This document shows positions 3,667 to 29,684 of a stretch of DNA of 42,834 bases, piece after piece; position 1 is the first letter of the stretch, and each line of letters begins with the position of its first letter. The notes beneath the pieces were generated by a model. The model worked only from the letters and a program-made list of their open reading frames with translations, made no database searches and was not told where the DNA came from. Made by a program: the position numbers and the translations under genes. The stretch covers positions 1 to 42,834 of IMG/VR virus record IMGVR_UViG_3300028610_000998. The stretch is one strand, 5' to 3'. Source of the DNA: a virus.

Positions 3667-4145
3667 GATCGGCCTCCGCATTTCGGACCGATGCCCAGAC
3701 GGATCGACTCGGGATCGGTGAGCTTGCGATTGCAGATCACGCAACGACCGGCGTGCTGGAGCTCGTACCCCTCGCCGGTCCAGAAACCGTCGGCGGCGCG
3801 GACGGCGAGGTCGACCCAGATCGCGAGCTTCGTCTCGATCGCCGACCAACCTGTCTTCTGAAAGTGAAAGCCGTCGATCGGAAGGTTCGAGTCGGGGCCG
3901 CGATGCCGGCGCCAGACGGTGGCCTTCTTGCGAGCGTCGTCCCAGAAGGCAACGCCGCGATAGTTCGTCGTGTTGTCGGGGCCGACGAGGAGCGAGACGA
4001 TCCGCTTCCCGATGAGGTCGCCCTTCAGGACCGTGTAGACCTTCAGGGTGAAGTGCCCCTGGGTCGGATGCGAGACGGTGTAGGTCCCGTTCTGAACGTT
4101 CGGCGCGTTAGTGACGGCCGCGCCGGCCGGATCCTCGTGCTTCAT
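3663..4145 (-). CDS. DUF6011-like zinc-finger protein, 160 aa
   Basis: The C-terminus RCVICNRKLTDPESIRLGIG followed by PKCG matches the DUF6011 signature (C-x2-C ... G-x-G-P-x-C), thought to bind zinc. The middle (about residues 20-100) reads as a beta-rich domain: GTYTVSHPTQGHFTLKVYT, then VSLLVGPDNTTNYRGVAFW. This resembles proteins from phage and plasmid replication regions. It is the first gene after the strong terminator at 4241-4275, so it probably has its own promoter. The ATG at 4145 (MKHEDPAG) begins ATGAAGCA like several other genes here. The DNA between that start and the terminator has no clear promoter I can name. Confidence 0.72.
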   Translation of the reverse strand: MKHEDPAGAAVTNAPNVQNGTYTVSHPTQGHFTLKVYTVLKGDLIGKRIVSLLVGPDNTTNYRGVAFWDDARKKATVWRRHRGPDSNLPIDGFHFQKTGWSAIETKLAIWVDLAVRAADGFWTGEGYELQHAGRCVICNRKLTDPESIRLGIGPKCGGRS

Positions 4146-4240
4146 ATTTTCTCTCTCAAGGAGCCTCGCGGTTCGTGTGTGCGACGGCTCAGGTCTGTGA
4201 ACGTACCCCGGTATCGGCAATCCGGCCAGGTGACCTTGAG
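4146..4240. other. short intergenic region, presumed promoter segment
   Basis: These 95 bases lie between a strong minus-strand terminator and the start of the DUF6011-like gene, so a promoter for the leftward recombination operon is expected here. I could not pick out a convincing -35/-10 pair. A GAGAGAG stretch upstream of the ATG may serve as ribosome binding site. No ORF is supported. Confidence 0.4.
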
Positions 4241-4275
4241 AAGAAAAGACCCCCCCGGCTCGCATCGGGAGGGTC
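4241..4275 (-). terminator. intrinsic terminator after the lysis-region genes
   Basis: Read on the minus strand, GACCCTCCCG pairs with CGGGGGGGTC (10 pairs, one G-T wobble) around an 8-base loop, directly followed by TTTTCTT. This is a textbook Rho-independent terminator. It stands about 110 bases after the stop of the lipoprotein gene and marks the end of the long late and accessory transcript. Confidence 0.85.
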
Positions 4276-4382
4276 CGGGTGGGGCGATCCCTACGGCCCG
4301 GGGACGCCAGGCTCCGAGAGAGAGGGTTTCAGATCAAGGCGATAGCCGCAATCCGGACCGCTCCACCGATCAAAACCTACCA

Positions 4383-4787
4383 TCACGGCACGGCGGACGT
4401 CGTCGTCGCGACGATGATCTCGTCGACGAGGATCTGGACAAGCAACACGATGGCGATGTCCTCACCGTCAAGTTCCTCGATCGCGACCTTCGAGATCAGG
4501 GTCGACAGTGACAGCAGCGCATCTGTGCGTGTCTCATCGCCGGACGCCGCGGCCATGACGTCGAGCGCCGAGGCGATCGTCTCGAATGTCTTCGCTCTGT
4601 CCGGGTTGCTCTCCGCGTACGCAGCGGCGGCGGCTCTGAAGTGTCCCGCGTAGCGAGTAGCGTCGGCGCTGACGCGCTCGACGCGGATCGTGCCGTCTTC
4701 GTTGACGAACCGCGACCCGCCGCCAGACGGACAGGATGCCAAGAACGAACAGGCGACGACGGTGGCGATGGAGAGAAGGTGCTTCAT
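4383..4787 (-). CDS. phage lipoprotein (possible outer spanin or lysis accessory)
   Basis: A 134-residue protein with a bacterial lipoprotein signal: MKHLL, a hydrophobic core (SIATVVACSF) and the lipobox L16-A17-S18-C19. The mature part of about 116 residues is helical and Ala rich, ending with a hydrophobic stretch (DIAIVLLVQILVDEIIV). Its ATG overlaps the stop of the holin candidate (ATGA), and a strong terminator follows. A lipoprotein directly behind a holin suggests an Rz1-like outer spanin, but it is longer than usual and not proline-rich, so another surface role such as superinfection immunity is possible. The lipobox is seen; the role is inferred. Confidence 0.75.
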   Translation of the reverse strand: MKHLLSIATVVACSFLASCPSGGGSRFVNEDGTIRVERVSADATRYAGHFRAAAAAYAESNPDRAKTFETIASALDVMAAASGDETRTDALLSLSTLISKVAIEELDGEDIAIVLLVQILVDEIIVATTTSAVP

Positions 4788-5005
4788 TGGTGGCTCGCGT
4801 TGTCCATCGTTCGGGCGACCTTTTCGCGTTCCTTGCCGATATCGGCGAGCCCTTGGCTGCCTATGTAGGCGTAGAGCGGAGCGGTTACGATGGCGATCTG
4901 CTCGATCGCGAAGCCGAACTTGATGCCGACACCGGAAAGGACCGCGGCGAGCGCCGCCGCGCCGAACTTCTTCGACGGCGTGATCGTAGGAACCGAGACT
5001 TGCAT
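4784..5005 (-). CDS. putative holin, 73 aa
   Basis: A small protein with an N-terminal TITPSKKFGAAALAAVLSG segment and a second hydrophobic segment AIEQIAIVTAPLYAYIGSQG, followed by a charged tail (LADIGKEREKVARTMD). This pattern, including the y-i-x-x-Q-G-L-A-D-x-G-K-E end, is familiar from small phage proteins annotated as holins. It is followed immediately by a lipoprotein gene. The preceding intergenic DNA starts TAGGGCCTCA, the first part of the leader repeat seen upstream of other small genes here. No endolysin gene is recognised nearby, which weakens the functional call. Confidence 0.6.
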   Translation of the reverse strand: MQVSVPTITPSKKFGAAALAAVLSGVGIKFGFAIEQIAIVTAPLYAYIGSQGLADIGKEREKVARTMDNASHQ

Positions 5006-23902: not shown

Positions 23903-24339
23903 GGAGCGAGCTCCTGGTAACGAATGGAAGCGACAACGTTCGTCTGAAACCAGGGCCCCGTCTCGCCGATCTCGTTCGGGTCGATGTCGAAGAACGAAAG
24001 ACCGGCCGGACTCCCCACGTGGCTGCGAAGCGCGTTGAGGATGACCTGAGCGAGAGCGTCGCCCAGGGTATTGCCATCGCCGAAGGGCGTGAAGATCTGG
24101 ACCGTGACGGTCCCGGTCGTCTCGAAGCGCCGGCGTCCCTGAGTCGTCTGTGGCGAACCGATCGTCCGAACGGTCGTCTTGGCGTAGGAAGGCGCTCGAG
24201 ACGTGATCGCATCCTCTCCGGGCTTGTCGGCCTTGACGTCGTCCCAATGCATCGGGATCGAGCTCGAGACCGAGGCCGCCAACCAGGCAGTATTGATCAC
24301 GAGAGCGACAGCGTCGCGGGCTTCGGCGAGGGTCGTCAT
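23899..24339 (-). CDS. tail terminator-like protein (DUF4128 type), 146 aa
   Basis: MTTLAEARDAVALVINTAWL starts a protein with a beta-rich core (RRRFETTGTVTVQIFTPFGD), then NALRSHVGSPAGLSFFDIDP and the C-terminal GPWFQTNVVASIRYQEL. The G-x-V-x-V-Q-I-F-x-P-x-G-x-G pattern and closing W-F-Q-T-N-V-V are those of DUF4128-like tail terminators, which cap the tail tube and connect it to the head. ATGA overlap with the upstream gene. Confidence 0.82.
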   Translation of the reverse strand: MTTLAEARDAVALVINTAWLAASVSSSIPMHWDDVKADKPGEDAITSRAPSYAKTTVRTIGSPQTTQGRRRFETTGTVTVQIFTPFGDGNTLGDALAQVILNALRSHVGSPAGLSFFDIDPNEIGETGPWFQTNVVASIRYQELAP

Positions 24340-24755
24340 CGCTTCAGCCCCAGCACGAAAAGGATCGAAGTGTCCCCTGGCTGCAGGTGCCCCCTGGTCA
24401 CGACCTTCCAGATATCGAGTCCGTCCCTGACGCTGTCGACTTCCTCGACGTCAGCTGGAGTCATGCCCGTGGGGAGCGACGAGGAAGCCATGAGTCCAAC
24501 CTGCTCGAACGCAACGGTTAGCTTTCCGCCGAGCTCCTTGACGAGCTTGCCGAATCCGGAACCCGAAGCGGGAATGAAGGCCATGATCACCGGAATGGTC
24601 AGGCCGCCGGCGACGGGTTCGGGGTGCTCGCTCGTGCCGCGCCACGGAAGCGCGGGGTCGTCGGGCGTACGGTTGACCCTGAAGAGCTCGACGCTCCTCC
24701 CGCTGGCCTCAATAAGCCTCAGAGCGGTCGCTGCTGAACGAGCGAAGTCAACCAC
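24336..24755 (-). CDS. head-closure-type protein, 139 aa
   Basis: A GTG-started gene (second residue Val) overlapping the DnaT-like adaptor gene by 8 bases. It has a helix with VDFARSAATALRLIEASGRS, the stretch LTIPVIMAFIPASGSGFGKL and a C-terminus VTRGHLQPGDTSILFVLGL. Its place between adaptor and tail terminator and the final G-D-T-S-I-L-F-V-L fit a head-closure/stopper protein. I assign it from position and fold-like features, not from a motif that proves it. Confidence 0.7.
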   Translation of the reverse strand: MVDFARSAATALRLIEASGRSVELFRVNRTPDDPALPWRGTSEHPEPVAGGLTIPVIMAFIPASGSGFGKLVKELGGKLTVAFEQVGLMASSSLPTGMTPADVEEVDSVRDGLDIWKVVTRGHLQPGDTSILFVLGLKR

Positions 24756-25662
24756 GGATGACTCCCGGCTGAGAGATCAGGTCCGCAAGGAGTCGGTCGG
24801 CCGCTGGGTATGCGGGGAGGGTTCCCGAGTTGGCCGTCCCAGCCAGGTATTGGGTCTCGGTCTCGATCGGGCCAACCCTTTCGCGAAGGCTCGTGATCGT
24901 CCCGCCAATCGGGTCGACCGTCGGATCGGGCGCGAGAACCGTCGTCGTTGAACGATCTCGGACAGCGTACTCCGCCGTGGCGTAGAGCAGTCGCAGCGGC
25001 ATGCCCTCGATCGAGTTTCCGTCGGGGTCGATGAGGCCAACCCGAGGAAACGAAAGCGGCTGCGGTGCGATGATGTCGGTGCCGCCGTGCAGTGTCGCGA
25101 AATTCCAGGATGCCCCTGTAACCGTCGTCGTCGTCGCGACGGTGTTGTCAGCGGTCCCGGTTAGAAGACCGAAGGCGAGCAGCCGGTTGTCGGTATACAG
25201 CTGCGCGCCGGCGTCGGGATTCGCGACCGTATCCGCGTGAAAGCCAACGCCTGACGTGTTCGCGTTCGCGTTGATCGCGTCGGTCAGGTTCACGACCGAG
25301 GCCGCTGCGCTCACGCCGATGAGAACGTCGTTCGCCGCAGCGAGCGCAGCCCGGAACGTGTAGGTCACAGACCCGACAACGACCGTCTCGGTGTCGAGCG
25401 CGTTGGCCGTGAGCTCGAGCGTCGAACGAGCGAGACTGATGTCGCTGTATTGCTTGATGCCGTTGAAGAGGGTCCGGAACCGGTTCTCGATGTAGTCGGT
25501 AGCGCCGACGCATGCGGCGTCCTCTTCGGCGGCCTCCGAACCGCTCGCCCAGCCGTTCTCGGTCGCGCGGTTGCGATCGGCTAGATAGCTCGAGACGAAG
25601 GTGGCGATGACGAAACTGTTCGCGCCAGCGACCCCGGTCCCGTTTTCTACGATGAGCGCCAT
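24748..25662 (-). CDS. DnaT-like head-tail adaptor with inserted domain, 304 aa
   Basis: The ends match phage adaptors annotated as DnaT-like ssDNA-binding proteins: MALIVENGTGVAGANSFVIA near the N-terminus, AAEEDAACVGATDYIENRF (44-62), and later FPRVGLIDPDGNSIEGMPL (205-223) and LRERVGPIETETQYL. Between them, about residues 76-195, lies an extra beta-rich domain (VTYTFRAALAAANDVLIGVS, VNLTDAINANANTSG) that the usual family lacks. The same domain occurs in the protein at 27705-28511. The protein probably joins portal and tail; the insert may face outward. Confidence 0.82.
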   Translation of the reverse strand: MALIVENGTGVAGANSFVIATFVSSYLADRNRATENGWASGSEAAEEDAACVGATDYIENRFRTLFNGIKQYSDISLARSTLELTANALDTETVVVGSVTYTFRAALAAANDVLIGVSAAASVVNLTDAINANANTSGVGFHADTVANPDAGAQLYTDNRLLAFGLLTGTADNTVATTTTVTGASWNFATLHGGTDIIAPQPLSFPRVGLIDPDGNSIEGMPLRLLYATAEYAVRDRSTTTVLAPDPTVDPIGGTITSLRERVGPIETETQYLAGTANSGTLPAYPAADRLLADLISQPGVIRG

Positions 25663-25677
25663 TTCATCCTCCTCCCC

Positions 25678-26277
25678 TTAGACGAAGTGCCTCGGTGCCT
25701 GTTTCGTGTACGCCGACAGCGGCTTGGCGACTTCGAATGAGCTCGGAGCGCCGACCTCGAGCACGTCGGCAGGGAGCGCACCAGAGGCGGCAGCGGCGAA
25801 GGCGCCGGCGCTATCGGCGGACCAGCCGAGCGGCAGGGAACCACCGGAAGCAACCCCTCGCGCAATCTCGAGCCCGTTGCCCCAGATTCTGACGCGACCG
25901 TCGCCAGGTAGGCAGGCGAAGACGAGGTTGAGCCTCAAGCCGACCGGCAGCGAAACGGTGTTGTCATACGTGGCGATCCCTCGGTCTGCAGCCGCGGCGT
26001 CTCCCGCACGGAACGACAAGGTCGAGTCGTCGACCCAGGCCGCGATGGCTGTGGCCGCGTCGCCGAACTCGAAGATCAGTCCAGCCGGCGTGGCGCCCGT
26101 AACGAGAATCGACGTCGCGAACGTCACCGGCGAAGTGAGACTGCCGGCGAACGAGCCTGCCGCAATCGACGCAGTCGGTATCCCGAAATCGTGCGTGCGG
26201 AAGAGCTCCGGAGTACCTCCGAGCGACCTGCGCCTCTCTCGCGAATGGAACAGGAGCGATTGTCTTTCGTGAGGCAT
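25678..26277 (-). CDS. structural protein with lectin-like fold (tentative), 199 aa
   Basis: The protein has an N-terminal basic, disordered-like stretch and then a beta-rich, Ala/Gly-rich body: GSFAGSLTSPVTFATSILVT, PAGLIFEFGDAATAIAAWVD, TVSLPVGLRLNLVFACLPGD, GRVRIWGNGLEIARGV. This sequence pattern resembles concanavalin/LamG-like jelly-roll domains seen in phage surface proteins (a GxVRIWGNGxExA-type strand). It sits between the capsid block and the adaptor gene. A decoration or head-associated adhesin is possible; the fold call is tentative. Confidence 0.55.
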   Translation of the reverse strand: MPHERQSLLFHSRERRRSLGGTPELFRTHDFGIPTASIAAGSFAGSLTSPVTFATSILVTGATPAGLIFEFGDAATAIAAWVDDSTLSFRAGDAAAADRGIATYDNTVSLPVGLRLNLVFACLPGDGRVRIWGNGLEIARGVASGGSLPLGWSADSAGAFAAAASGALPADVLEVGAPSSFEVAKPLSAYTKQAPRHFV

Positions 26278-26288
26278 CTGCCGCTACC

Positions 26289-27056
26289 TCAGGACATAGC
26301 CGAAGGGATGCGCACAGGGGGACGTCTCGACCCGAGCGCAGGTTTGCGCTGTTTCATCGCGGCGTCGAGCCTCGAGCCGCCCCGCAGCTGGGCGGCGACG
26401 TCGGCTGGCGTCGTGCCGGCATCGATGAACTTCCGAGCTCGAGCCGCGCGCTCCTCTCGAGCTCGAGACTGGGCAGCCAGATAGTCCTGGACGTTCGTCC
26501 GCTTGGTGCCGTTCTGGCGAGCGATGCGGTCGTGCAGGACCTCTTGTCGGCTCAGGAGCTCGGTCTTCGCATAGAGTTGCTTGAGCTCCTCGTCGATCTT
26601 CGCCTTCGCACTGAGGACCTGGGCCACCTTGCGATTGATCTCATCGAGGGCCTTCTTCGTCAGATCAGGATGACCGAGAACGGTTCCGACCGGAAGGTCG
26701 AGGACATTCTGTGTGTCGAGCTCGACCTCCACCTTGACCTGCGTCGCTTCGACGTCGACCTTCGGGGCACCGTCCTCCTCGAGGACGAGCTCGGCGAACG
26801 TCTTCTCGGGCGCCGGCGGGTCGGCCGCTTTCGGGCCGAGATTCTCGCTGCGAACGACACCGGTATTCTCGGCTTCGACCAGCTGAGCCTGCGCGAGAGC
26901 TCGAGTCAGGTTCGGCGCAGCGTGCGTGATGTCCTTGCGGGTGATCGAGGAGTCACCGGCGAGCTCGCCGACCGCGGTCATGCGCGGCAATCCGTCAGCG
27001 GTCCAGTGATCGTCGTTTGCGGGATCGAGTCGTGAGGTGGCTTCTAGGAGATTCAT
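26289..27056 (-). CDS. phage protein with WTADG N-terminus, 255 aa
   Basis: The N-terminus MNLLEATSRLDPANDDHWTA, DGLPRMTAVGELAG, is a short motif region seen in phage head-module proteins of unknown role (it resembles the docking segment D-P-x-N-D-x-H-W-T-x-D-G-x-P). The middle is an acidic, then highly helical coiled coil (EINRKVAQVLSAKAKIDEEL), and the C-terminus is basic (RQNGTKRTNVQDYLAAQSRA). The ATG at 27056 follows AAGGA and excludes a 23-residue in-frame extension. Confidence 0.65.
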   Translation of the reverse strand: MNLLEATSRLDPANDDHWTADGLPRMTAVGELAGDSSITRKDITHAAPNLTRALAQAQLVEAENTGVVRSENLGPKAADPPAPEKTFAELVLEEDGAPKVDVEATQVKVEVELDTQNVLDLPVGTVLGHPDLTKKALDEINRKVAQVLSAKAKIDEELKQLYAKTELLSRQEVLHDRIARQNGTKRTNVQDYLAAQSRAREERAARARKFIDAGTTPADVAAQLRGGSRLDAAMKQRKPALGSRRPPVRIPSAMS

Positions 27057-27143
27057 CGGTCGGCTTCCTTGCAGGAGGGGTTCGTCGTCGGGAGAAGAGC
27101 GACCCGCCCGAATGGGAATAGCCAATCGAGCAGGCCCTCCAGA

Positions 27144-27665
27144 TCAGTCGTCGAGGACCTTGGTGTAAAGGATCTCGATTTCACCCGATACGGTGATCGG
27201 GATGCCATCGGCCGAGACGTCGGCGTCATCGACCAGCAGCGAAACGTTGACCTCGAGCGACCCGTCCGTGTTGTCGAGGATGACCTGGGTGTTCCCGGTT
27301 CCTCGAGTCCTCGGCGAGACCTCGGCGGCTGCAGCGGCGAGCGCGGTCGTGCCGACCATGTCGACATCGCCAGCGCTGATCGTGCCATCGGATGCCGGCG
27401 TCGAGCCGACGCCGTAGTCGCCGGCCCAAGTATCGACGAGTCCGGCATCGGAGCCGGAGCCCGCGAACTGCAGGTAGGCGACGCCGCCCTGCAGAATGAT
27501 GTTGCCCTCCGGCAGCTGGCCGGCGACGAGCGATCCGAATCCGACCCCCGACGCACCGTCGAGCGTGAGCGCAGCGTTCGTCAGAACGATCGTGTGCGAC
27601 AGAAGCGCCGCCGGCCTGCTTGCGATCGGCGCTCGAGAGAGCGAGCGCTGTAGTCCTTTAGTCAT
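27144..27665 (-). CDS. head-region structural protein, 173 aa
   Basis: A Gly/Ala/Thr-rich, beta-like protein: LLSHTIVLTNAALTLDGASG, GVAYLQFAGSGSDAGLVDTW and VNVSLLVDDADVSADGIPIT. It lies right after the capsid block and has the low-charge, beta-rich composition of decoration or head-completion proteins. No motif names a family. The gene may encode a capsid cement protein; the evidence is composition and position only. Confidence 0.6.
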   Translation of the reverse strand: MTKGLQRSLSRAPIASRPAALLSHTIVLTNAALTLDGASGVGFGSLVAGQLPEGNIILQGGVAYLQFAGSGSDAGLVDTWAGDYGVGSTPASDGTISAGDVDMVGTTALAAAAAEVSPRTRGTGNTQVILDNTDGSLEVNVSLLVDDADVSADGIPITVSGEIEILYTKVLDD

Positions 27666-27704
27666 GGTCTTTCGGCTTGTGAAGGTTGAGAGGGCGGGCG
27701 GGTT

Positions 27705-28511
27705 CTAGTTCGCGACACCGTCGATAGCTGTCTGCCAGAAATCGGCGATGTTCTGGGCGGGATCGTTCACGCGGATACCGGTAGCCGTAAGTCGATTCAC
27801 GACGACGTCCTCGAGGGAGTCGGCCAGCGACTGCGCCGTGGCGACGAGCGTGTGCACTCCCGTTCCGGCATCGGCAAGAGCAACTGCGGTACCTGCGATC
27901 GCGGCAGCCTTCGTCAGCGCCAGGGAGAACGTGCCGCTATCAAGCCGAATGATGAAGTACTCGGTCCCGTCGGCGCCGTTCTGGAGCGTGGCGTTATCCC
28001 ACGTCAAGGTCGAGTCGGGCGTCGAAACGGCGATCGCGTCACCGATCGCTGAGTCGAGAGTCTTCGCGGTGATGATGCAAGTGTCTCCGCGAGCCTCGGC
28101 GCTGACGTTCGGATTGCCGACCGTGTCGATGTCGTAATCGGTCCCGGCTCCTGAGCCGAGGTTGATCGCGCGGGCGAGGTTCTCCATCGACGCCGCATCC
28201 GAGGCGCCGACATCGACGTCACCGTCGGCCGCCGGCGTGGCGATGAACGTGTACGTCTTGCCGTCGATGATCACGAGGTCGGTCGCGATCACGGTTACGG
28301 CGGTGACGAACGTGGCCGCGCGCGCCGCCGCAACGAGACCGGATGGGACGTCGCCGGCGGAAGTCGTCATCACCTTGAACGGTCCGGCGCCGGTCTGCAG
28401 ACCGTGAGCCGCCGCCGTGAGGATGTTTCCCGACGTTCGCACGAACTCCTTCGAGAGCCCGACGGCAACGTCCTCGCCGAGCGATGTAATGAAGAGGGCT
28501 TTGGTAGTCAT
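27705..28511 (-). CDS. capsid-region protein with shared beta domain, 268 aa
   Basis: Residues about 72-183 (for example DGKTYTFIATPAADGDVDVG, MENLARAINLGSGAGTDYDI, TVGNPNVSAEARGDTCIITA) match, segment by segment, the domain inserted in the DnaT-like adaptor (VTYTFRAALAAANDVLIGVS, VNLTDAINANANTSG, TVANPDAGAQLYTDN). The rest is Ala/Thr rich. The gene follows the major capsid gene with a 99-base gap, the usual place for a decoration or head protein. Function is inferred only from place and the shared domain. Confidence 0.68.
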   Translation of the reverse strand: MTTKALFITSLGEDVAVGLSKEFVRTSGNILTAAAHGLQTGAGPFKVMTTSAGDVPSGLVAAARAATFVTAVTVIATDLVIIDGKTYTFIATPAADGDVDVGASDAASMENLARAINLGSGAGTDYDIDTVGNPNVSAEARGDTCIITAKTLDSAIGDAIAVSTPDSTLTWDNATLQNGADGTEYFIIRLDSGTFSLALTKAAAIAGTAVALADAGTGVHTLVATAQSLADSLEDVVVNRLTATGIRVNDPAQNIADFWQTAIDGVAN

Positions 28512-28610: not shown

Positions 28611-29684
28611 TCAGGCCTCGCGCGTCACCAGGCGTGCGAACTTGATCTGCTTGCGCTCGGGGAACCGACGATCCCAGGAGGTTGCGTTCTCCAGCTGGTT
28701 CGCTCCCGTGCCGTTGCCGGGGCCACCGTCCGCGGCCGTGCCGACGTAGGCGTGACCGACCGGGTGCAGGCTCCATTCGACGCGAGAGTGCAGGATCTCC
28801 TGCCCCCCGCCGTTGCCTGCACCCGGCTTGCGCTCGACCTCGGTCGGCACCTTCGCCGAACCGGCGCCCATCTGCATGAAGCCGGCTCCGAAGAGCCAGG
28901 TATCGTAGACGTTCGCCGTGACCGGCATGCCGTCGTCGATGATGACCTCGCGACCGAGGAACGTCGGGATCTGAACCTCGCCGCGCGCGTCGGGGATGAA
29001 GTCGATCAGGTTGTTTTTCTGCATCCGAGCGAAGACGACCGAGTGAACCATCATTCCGGTCAGGGCCTCCATCGAGTCGCCCATCGTGACGGCCGTGTCG
29101 ATCACGGCCTCGGCGCTGATATTGGTGACGCCGTCGACGAAGGATCCGCCGCTGACGTCGTTCTCGTAATCGCCAGCGTCGTTGGCGACGTTGTCGAGGA
29201 TCACGCCGTTCACGGTTGCGATGAAGGCGGCCTGAAGTCGACGCCGCCAGTAGAACGCGACGTTCCCGGCGATCGAGTTGAGCGGATCGGATCCCGCGAG
29301 GGCCGCAGCAAGGTCAGCACTCGACCAACTGTTGTTGCGGGAAAGACGGACGGCGATCTCGGTATCCGTCTCGACCTTCAGCGGAACGGAATCGTTCAGC
29401 GTCGGGTAGTTCGCACCAACCGCGGTTCCTGAAAGCTGCGTCCAGGCGATCGCGTCGGAAACGGCGTCGGTCGAGACGTTGTCGGCGTCGTTGTCGAGGT
29501 CACGGAACGAGGGGACGTTGAACGTCAAGCCTCCTCCGGCGAGGAGCGCGTCCATGAGCGGATTCCGAGCAAGGATCCCGGCTTGGATGAGCCGCGCCTT
29601 CTCTTCGGTCTGCTGCTGGACGTAGGGCGTGAAGATCTCAGGAACGACGATGTCGGAGACCTGAGTAAGAGGGCCGGCGGCCAT
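28611..29684 (-). CDS. major capsid protein, 357 aa
   Basis: The protein opens MAAGPLTQVSDIVVPEIFTP, then YVQQQTEEKARLIQAGI, LTFNVPSFRDLDNDADNVST, and has a conserved later part LTGMMVHSVVFARMQKNNLI, GREVIIDDGMPVT. These stretches and the length are those of HK97-fold capsid proteins of the P22-coat/major capsid type in phages with a separate scaffold. The gene lies directly after a scaffold-like gene. A good GAGGT precedes the start by 7 bases. A 14-bp hairpin stands 119 bases before the ATG. Confidence 0.88.
   Translation of the reverse strand: MAAGPLTQVSDIVVPEIFTPYVQQQTEEKARLIQAGILARNPLMDALLAGGGLTFNVPSFRDLDNDADNVSTDAVSDAIAWTQLSGTAVGANYPTLNDSVPLKVETDTEIAVRLSRNNSWSSADLAAALAGSDPLNSIAGNVAFYWRRRLQAAFIATVNGVILDNVANDAGDYENDVSGGSFVDGVTNISAEAVIDTAVTMGDSMEALTGMMVHSVVFARMQKNNLIDFIPDARGEVQIPTFLGREVIIDDGMPVTANVYDTWLFGAGFMQMGAGSAKVPTEVERKPGAGNGGGQEILHSRVEWSLHPVGHAYVGTAADGGPGNGTGANQLENATSWDRRFPERKQIKFARLVTREA

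Follow-up and report, generated by a model that had tools for sequence, protein, structure and literature searches.

What is the region that two proteins encoded in a single virus genome fragment, a head-tail adaptor and the product of the gene directly after the major capsid gene, have in common, and how did both come to carry it? The fragment is the IMG/VR record IMGVR_UViG_3300028610_000998, analyzed over its positions 1 to 42,834 (42,834 nucleotides; hereafter, the window). Gene A (24748 to 25662, minus strand, 304 amino acids) encodes a head-tail adaptor of the Ad1/DnaT_2 family (phrog_477), and gene B (27705 to 28511, minus strand, 268 amino acids) encodes an accessory protein; the shared region splits the adaptor in one case and a small module, denoted HGL below, in the other. 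The comparisons described here indicate that the shared region is a mobile inserted domain of phage virion proteins, with a rough probability of 0.85, a figure that applies to the mobile domain and not to any one function of it. The promiscuous domains so far described on phage particles are mainly immunoglobulin (Ig)-like, and the interest of this locus is that it leads, beyond that kind, to an un-catalogued jumping module carried by dozens of phage proteins of the head, neck and tail that are unrelated to one another.

One domain inserted in two host proteins

Comparison of the protein sequences confirms that A and B share one homologous domain of about 120 residues. Both open reading frames (ORFs) are on the minus strand, with stops on the plus strand. 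BLASTP aligns residues 75-196 of A with residues 60-181 of B at 34% identity and 53% positives, with 2 gap positions (E=8e-13), the Smith-Waterman score of the pair is 170, compared with a mean of 52.9, a standard deviation of 8.4 and a maximum of 88 in 1000 shuffles, and hhalign of the B-family domain profile against the profile of adaptor inserts gives a probability of 98.2 (E=6e-14). A preliminary description of the window had proposed this sharing, and all the motifs that it named (YTF, G-x-S, NLxxAIN, TVxNP and the final ATLxxG) are present; its range for A, residues 76-195, is right, whereas its start for B, residue 72, is about 12 residues late and should be 60. A scan of all window ORFs detects the domain in no other one.

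The host part of A is an ordinary adaptor. The phrog_477 (head-tail adaptor Ad1) profile matches the protein at E=1.8e-25 in two stretches that cover both halves of the host part, and the Pfam DnaT_2 family matches it above the cut-off (E=4.9e-21). The N-terminal half, residues 1-72 (25447 to 25662, minus strand), aligns with insert-free adaptors (L003 and L005), the C-terminal half, residues 199-304 (24751 to 25068, minus strand), contains the best phrog_477 stretch, 199-299, and the domain itself occupies residues from about 76 to 198 (25069 to 25437, minus strand), on the evidence of the empty-site adaptors and an AlphaFold2 model. The adaptors of three related viral contigs (L003, L004 and L005) cover residues 1-74 and 187-303 of A, with no residues between. 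The slot of the gene, with capsid genes on one side and the head closure, terminator and tube genes on the other, is the same in the window, L003, L005, L027 and L030.

In a census of 78 distinct adaptor ORFs collected by a profile scan, the insert is absent from 69, which bears out the earlier statement that the usual DnaT-like adaptor lacks it, and present in nine (the window, L027, L030, L174, L179, L180, L183, L194 and L195). All nine inserts occupy the identical site, adaptor positions from about 70 to 73, and they are strongly diverged in sequence and in some adaptors shortened (L030, L174, L194). On an adaptor tree built without the insert columns, a quick tree with support from the Shimodaira-Hasegawa-like approximate likelihood ratio test only, the presence of the insert maps as four changes, and well-supported branches force at least two gains or losses.

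In B, residues 1-59 (28335 to 28511, minus strand), ending ...HGLQTGAGPFKVMTTSAGDVPSGL, include the first half of the HGL module, the domain spans residues from about 60 to 181 (27969 to 28334, minus strand; profile match 66-180), and residues 182-268 (27708 to 27968, minus strand) comprise the second HGL half (GTEYFII..TFSLA) and a C-terminal tail. Derived from these flanking parts, the HGL module reads HGLxTGxGPFxV....PxGL in its first half and xTxYxIVxxxxxTFSLA in its second, and it occurs uninterrupted in L142-L144 (E=5e-11), L193 (E=2e-10) and L026. Because homologues with an empty site exist both for the adaptor and for the HGL module, the domain is, by these alignments, a true insertion in both proteins, splitting an ordinary Ad1/DnaT-like head-tail adaptor in A and the HGL module in B.

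Spread among virion proteins and nesting of the domain within itself

A profile built from the A and B families, together with further scans, finds the domain in 106 distinct ORFs whose host parts form 45 clusters. Profiles were used because single domain sequences are too divergent for the search: tblastn of phage genomes with each domain alone returned one record each (Simon and Sonora), and one early domain alignment was too divergent to yield search patterns. Besides the Ad1 adaptor, the carriers include the head closure protein Hc3 (phrog_578; L023 and L068), tail tubes of the Phage_tube_2/phrog_290 family (Sonora, L001; Simon, L002; L106), a major tail protein (phrog_9522; L018), a virion protein (phrog_3287; L028) and two head-decoration families, a cement protein (Phage_cement_2, E=5e-10; L034) and a lambda-D-type decoration protein (phrog_49, E=1e-12; L095). 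With empty sites in the hosts of A and B and many unrelated carriers, the proposal of a mobile inserted domain on capsid and connector proteins is supported. Among 60 diverse members, the reading frame is kept, a Y, an N and an A are invariant, and an L, a G and a Y are nearly so. In cellular genomes, the domain appears to be rare: when 99 genomes were examined from the phylum to which the Terriglobia genome behind L115 belongs, this starting genome was the sole match.

In Sonora and Simon, which are relatives of the window phage, the tail tube has the domain and the adaptor is insert-free. That one phage has the domain in its adaptor and a relative has it in its tail tube allows one to test whether it is the position of such ornaments or mere surface exposure that matters. 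Within one tail-tube family, two insertion sites are found, near residue 41 (L001:3836-5773) and near residue 208 (L106:2338-4260). Tandem arrays of two to four domains are seen in L036, L069, L072, L075, L076, L083, L114 and others; the later units usually begin at profile position 10-12, without the first strand, as if it were shared or replaced by neighbours.

The domain also inserts into itself. Half domains were detected in 16 distinct ORFs, and in all 16 their order is balanced, with reciprocal breakpoints near position 34: an N-half (profile positions 1 to about 34) is followed by one or more whole domains and then by a C-half (about 35 to 121). Examples are L097:2445-3368, L042:2713-3843 and 3931-4932, L026:2734-3939, L084:1136-2521, L197-L207 and L079:2398-4008, the last of which has three layers (N-half, N-half, whole domain, C-half, C-half). 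When the outer halves are joined by script, they score as full domains, with 83-141 bits, the inner copies scoring 102-147 bits. The family of L097 includes 10 more distinct nested members, one with a single uninterrupted domain (L209) and two with none (L210 and L211). Self-nesting offers a natural and readable series of domain insertion, from no copy through one copy and a copy within a copy to two copies within a copy.

The AlphaFold2 model of the nested L097 protein (15-row alignment) has a mean predicted local distance difference test score (pLDDT) of 82.5; the outer N-half and the inner domain are mostly above 90, the C-half is above 90 to about residue 240 and lower beyond, and the order of strands and helix is the same in the outer and the inner domain. 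That the outer halves pair into one domain is supported by this model but not proven. Taken together, there is good reason to think that this is an un-catalogued, virus-associated mobile module in which the loop at profile position ~34 accepts whole copies of the module itself, giving 'Russian doll' proteins of up to three layers, and that this same tolerance of splicing allows it to move from one neck, head or tail protein to another in a single phage lineage. The open-access literature yielded no description of the domain or of self-nested domains, although one elsewhere is not excluded.

Fold and comparison with known domains

The AlphaFold2 model of A (47-row alignment) has a mean pLDDT of 85.3 and a predicted template modelling score of 0.75, and the insert is modelled as a β/α domain, mostly with pLDDT above 90. 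The predicted strands are at residues 79-84, 93-96, 99-104 and 112-114, followed by a helix at 119-131 and strands at 151-157, 160-165, 175-179, 184-186 and 190-192; the weaker parts are the loop at about 161-180 (73-79 by block, below 50 at 168-171) and the last residues (60 for the block 191-200). Foldseek search of BFVD returns viral proteins with the same domain, such as A0A516M5Z3 (298 residues, 38% identity over its length, E=2e-30), as well as DnaT-like adaptors without it.

The weak PDB folds at the top of the list are tail-sheath-length chains of the phages Mu, A-1(L) and Milano and the flagellar cap protein FliD. The nested model matches the sheath chains of A-1(L) and Milano with probabilities of 0.99 and 0.93, respectively, and that of Mu is matched by the A model, so that the best PDB folds of both models are sheath domains; however, the E-values are only 0.014-0.13, that of the match with a probability of 0.99 being 0.014, and the sequence identity is about 15%. 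Among the 60 members, one matches the sheath profile phrog_165 (E=3e-7) and one matches Flagellin_IN (E=0.007); in the case of FliD and Flagellin_IN, the protein context differs and the match alone is not significant. No sheath gene was identified within the window region studied. A distant kinship of the domain with those of sheath proteins and FliD is accordingly a lead rather than a finding.

No sequence family in Pfam, NCBIfam or the PDB covers the domain at a convincing score, and neither single proteins nor profiles of 7, 8 and 60 members produced a real match in sequence searches of the PDB. Single-member matches in Pfam and NCBIfam to unrelated enzymes were judged to be due to chance. 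Among the PHROGs, phrog_28344, a family of unknown function with 205 positions, is matched by eight of the 60 members (best E=2.4e-8) but misses most members, including both window copies, at E<0.001.

Like the phage Ig-like domains (Big_2, I-set, FN3), the domain is promiscuous, beta-rich, optional and often repeated on unrelated head, neck and tail proteins, and its spread over the 45 host clusters matches theirs in kind. Unlike them, it has a helix with the NLxxAIN motif between strands, as modelled in the A insert, and it inserts mainly within loops and within itself. Searches of the 60 members with the Ig-like Pfam families (Big, I-set, FN3) yielded a single match, to Big_11, for one member (E=0.03), and in the structural comparison antibody chains ranked below the sheath and FliD folds, none reaching E<0.001. 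By these tests, it is a second kind of promiscuous virion domain, separate from the Ig-like one and missing from Pfam and NCBIfam. An extra domain on a neck adaptor has a counterpart in the roseophage R4C, with the difference that the R4C domain is N-terminal (residues 1-106) and Ig-like according to its authors (PMC10276861), whereas that of A is an insert in an internal loop.

Possible roles of the module and placement of its host genes

In the best reading of the available comparisons, the domain would be an outward-facing, transferable surface module of the virion. Folding on its own into a compact beta/alpha unit of about 120 residues, it probably spreads among virion proteins via recombination; its two chain ends must lie close together, so that it could be spliced into surface loops leaving the host fold intact. 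The adaptor probably gained it in the loop after the long second helix, and B separately gained its own copy inside the HGL module. Solved adaptors form a dodecameric ring under the portal and outside the capsid shell. By analogy, the copies on A may surround the neck as a ring of about 12 knobs that face outwards, adjoining the portal vertex, and those on B may sit on the head. The job of the domain would then be generic surface work, that is, weak adhesion to polymers of the host surface or the environment, or bracing against neighbouring capsid subunits. Such a role appears more likely than a catalytic function or a specific assembly step, since there are close relatives that lack the domain, and carriers as unlike as tubes, cement and closure proteins also make an assembly step the less likely choice.

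Several points weigh against this picture. Searches of the PDB by Foldseek with the A and nested L097 models gave no match below E=0.001, and the fold of the B domain is assigned from its homology to A. The ring number and the outward position of the A inserts are carried over from solved adaptors, and the orientation of the domain, its binding and the presence of B in the particle are predictions.

The possibility that the domain was passed between A and B inside this phage and that both copies bind one common partner, the latter having been raised in the preliminary description along with a symmetry axis, draws on the presence of both in one 42.8-kb genome fragment and appears highly improbable. 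In the domain tree, which has few columns and many unresolved forks, the B insert groups with its orthologues (support 99*) within a group (96*) that excludes the A insert; the nearest kin of the A insert is that of the L027 adaptor (52% identity), and the nearest kin of the B insert are the B orthologues. Because the inserts belong to different clades, neither is a recent copy of the other, and they were probably acquired separately; a recent duplication was rejected on this tree. A common partner or axis is further unsupported given that B is optional, and the occurrence of the domain in tail tubes, in tandem and in nested form suggests that it serves as a generic surface module and not at a shared capsid site.

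Among the functions compatible with a surface module, weak adhesion to glycans or other polymers, whether from the host or from the habitat, as proposed for phage Ig-like domains, is a tentative choice at slightly below even odds: the ecology is the same, with many unrelated virion proteins, tandem copies and optional presence, but no motif of a conserved binding site was recognised, and a carbohydrate-binding module match in one of the 60 members is sub-threshold (E=0.008) and too weak to count. Moreover, the authors of the R4C study judged that a domain of an adaptor this close to the head is unlikely to take part in adsorption (PMC10276861). The same structure favours bracing, in which the domain contacts neighbouring subunits, since the peripheral attachment domain of the dodecameric R4C adaptor touches capsid proteins and a local stabilisation was proposed by its authors (PMC10276861); in the YSD1 tail tube, an inserted domain 2 latches adjacent tube subunits (PMC7385642), and the site is fixed in all nine insert-bearing adaptors. 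Bracing nonetheless seems unlikely as the general role, given that the same domain occurs on tubes, cement and closure proteins and in tandem arrays with unrelated neighbours, that most adaptors do without it and that the adaptor inserts are so divergent. Less probable still is a near-neutral passenger that spreads by illegitimate recombination and has little function of its own, a view that would account for the patchy gain and loss on the adaptor tree, for self-nesting and tandem growth and for the divergence and shortening of the adaptor inserts. The frame and residue set kept across the 60 members and the retention of the domain by B orthologues at about 50% identity stand against it and suggest selection on the domain.

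The gene next after A (24336 to 24755, minus strand) encodes the head closure protein Hc1 (phrog_161, E=2.5e-4), in an order conserved in relatives, and the upstream neighbour of B is the major capsid protein gene (28611 to 29684, minus strand; phrog_247 major head protein, E=4.3e-96). B itself has no family match in Pfam, NCBIfam or the decoration PHROGs, and a phage search with its two host parts joined found no match. Its five orthologues (L006-L010) are 52-62% identical and all keep the insert. In four phages (the window, L006, L007 and L008), the gene comes after that of the capsid protein, and in L009 and L010 its place is between the genes for the MuF-like protein and the scaffold. No B gene was found in L005, where the head operon is the same and the adaptor has no insert. 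By this comparison of gene orders, B is optional and movable. In L142-L144, the intact HGL module is preceded in the same protein by a Phage_tube_2 tail tube part (for example, L142:2816-3478), so that HGL, too, looks like a mobile virion module. The MuF-like head protein of L007 (L007:1630-3729) has an extra 300 residues that are absent from the window copy, and this extra region matches, just below the curated Pfam cut-off (E=7.8e-8), an intein splicing domain.

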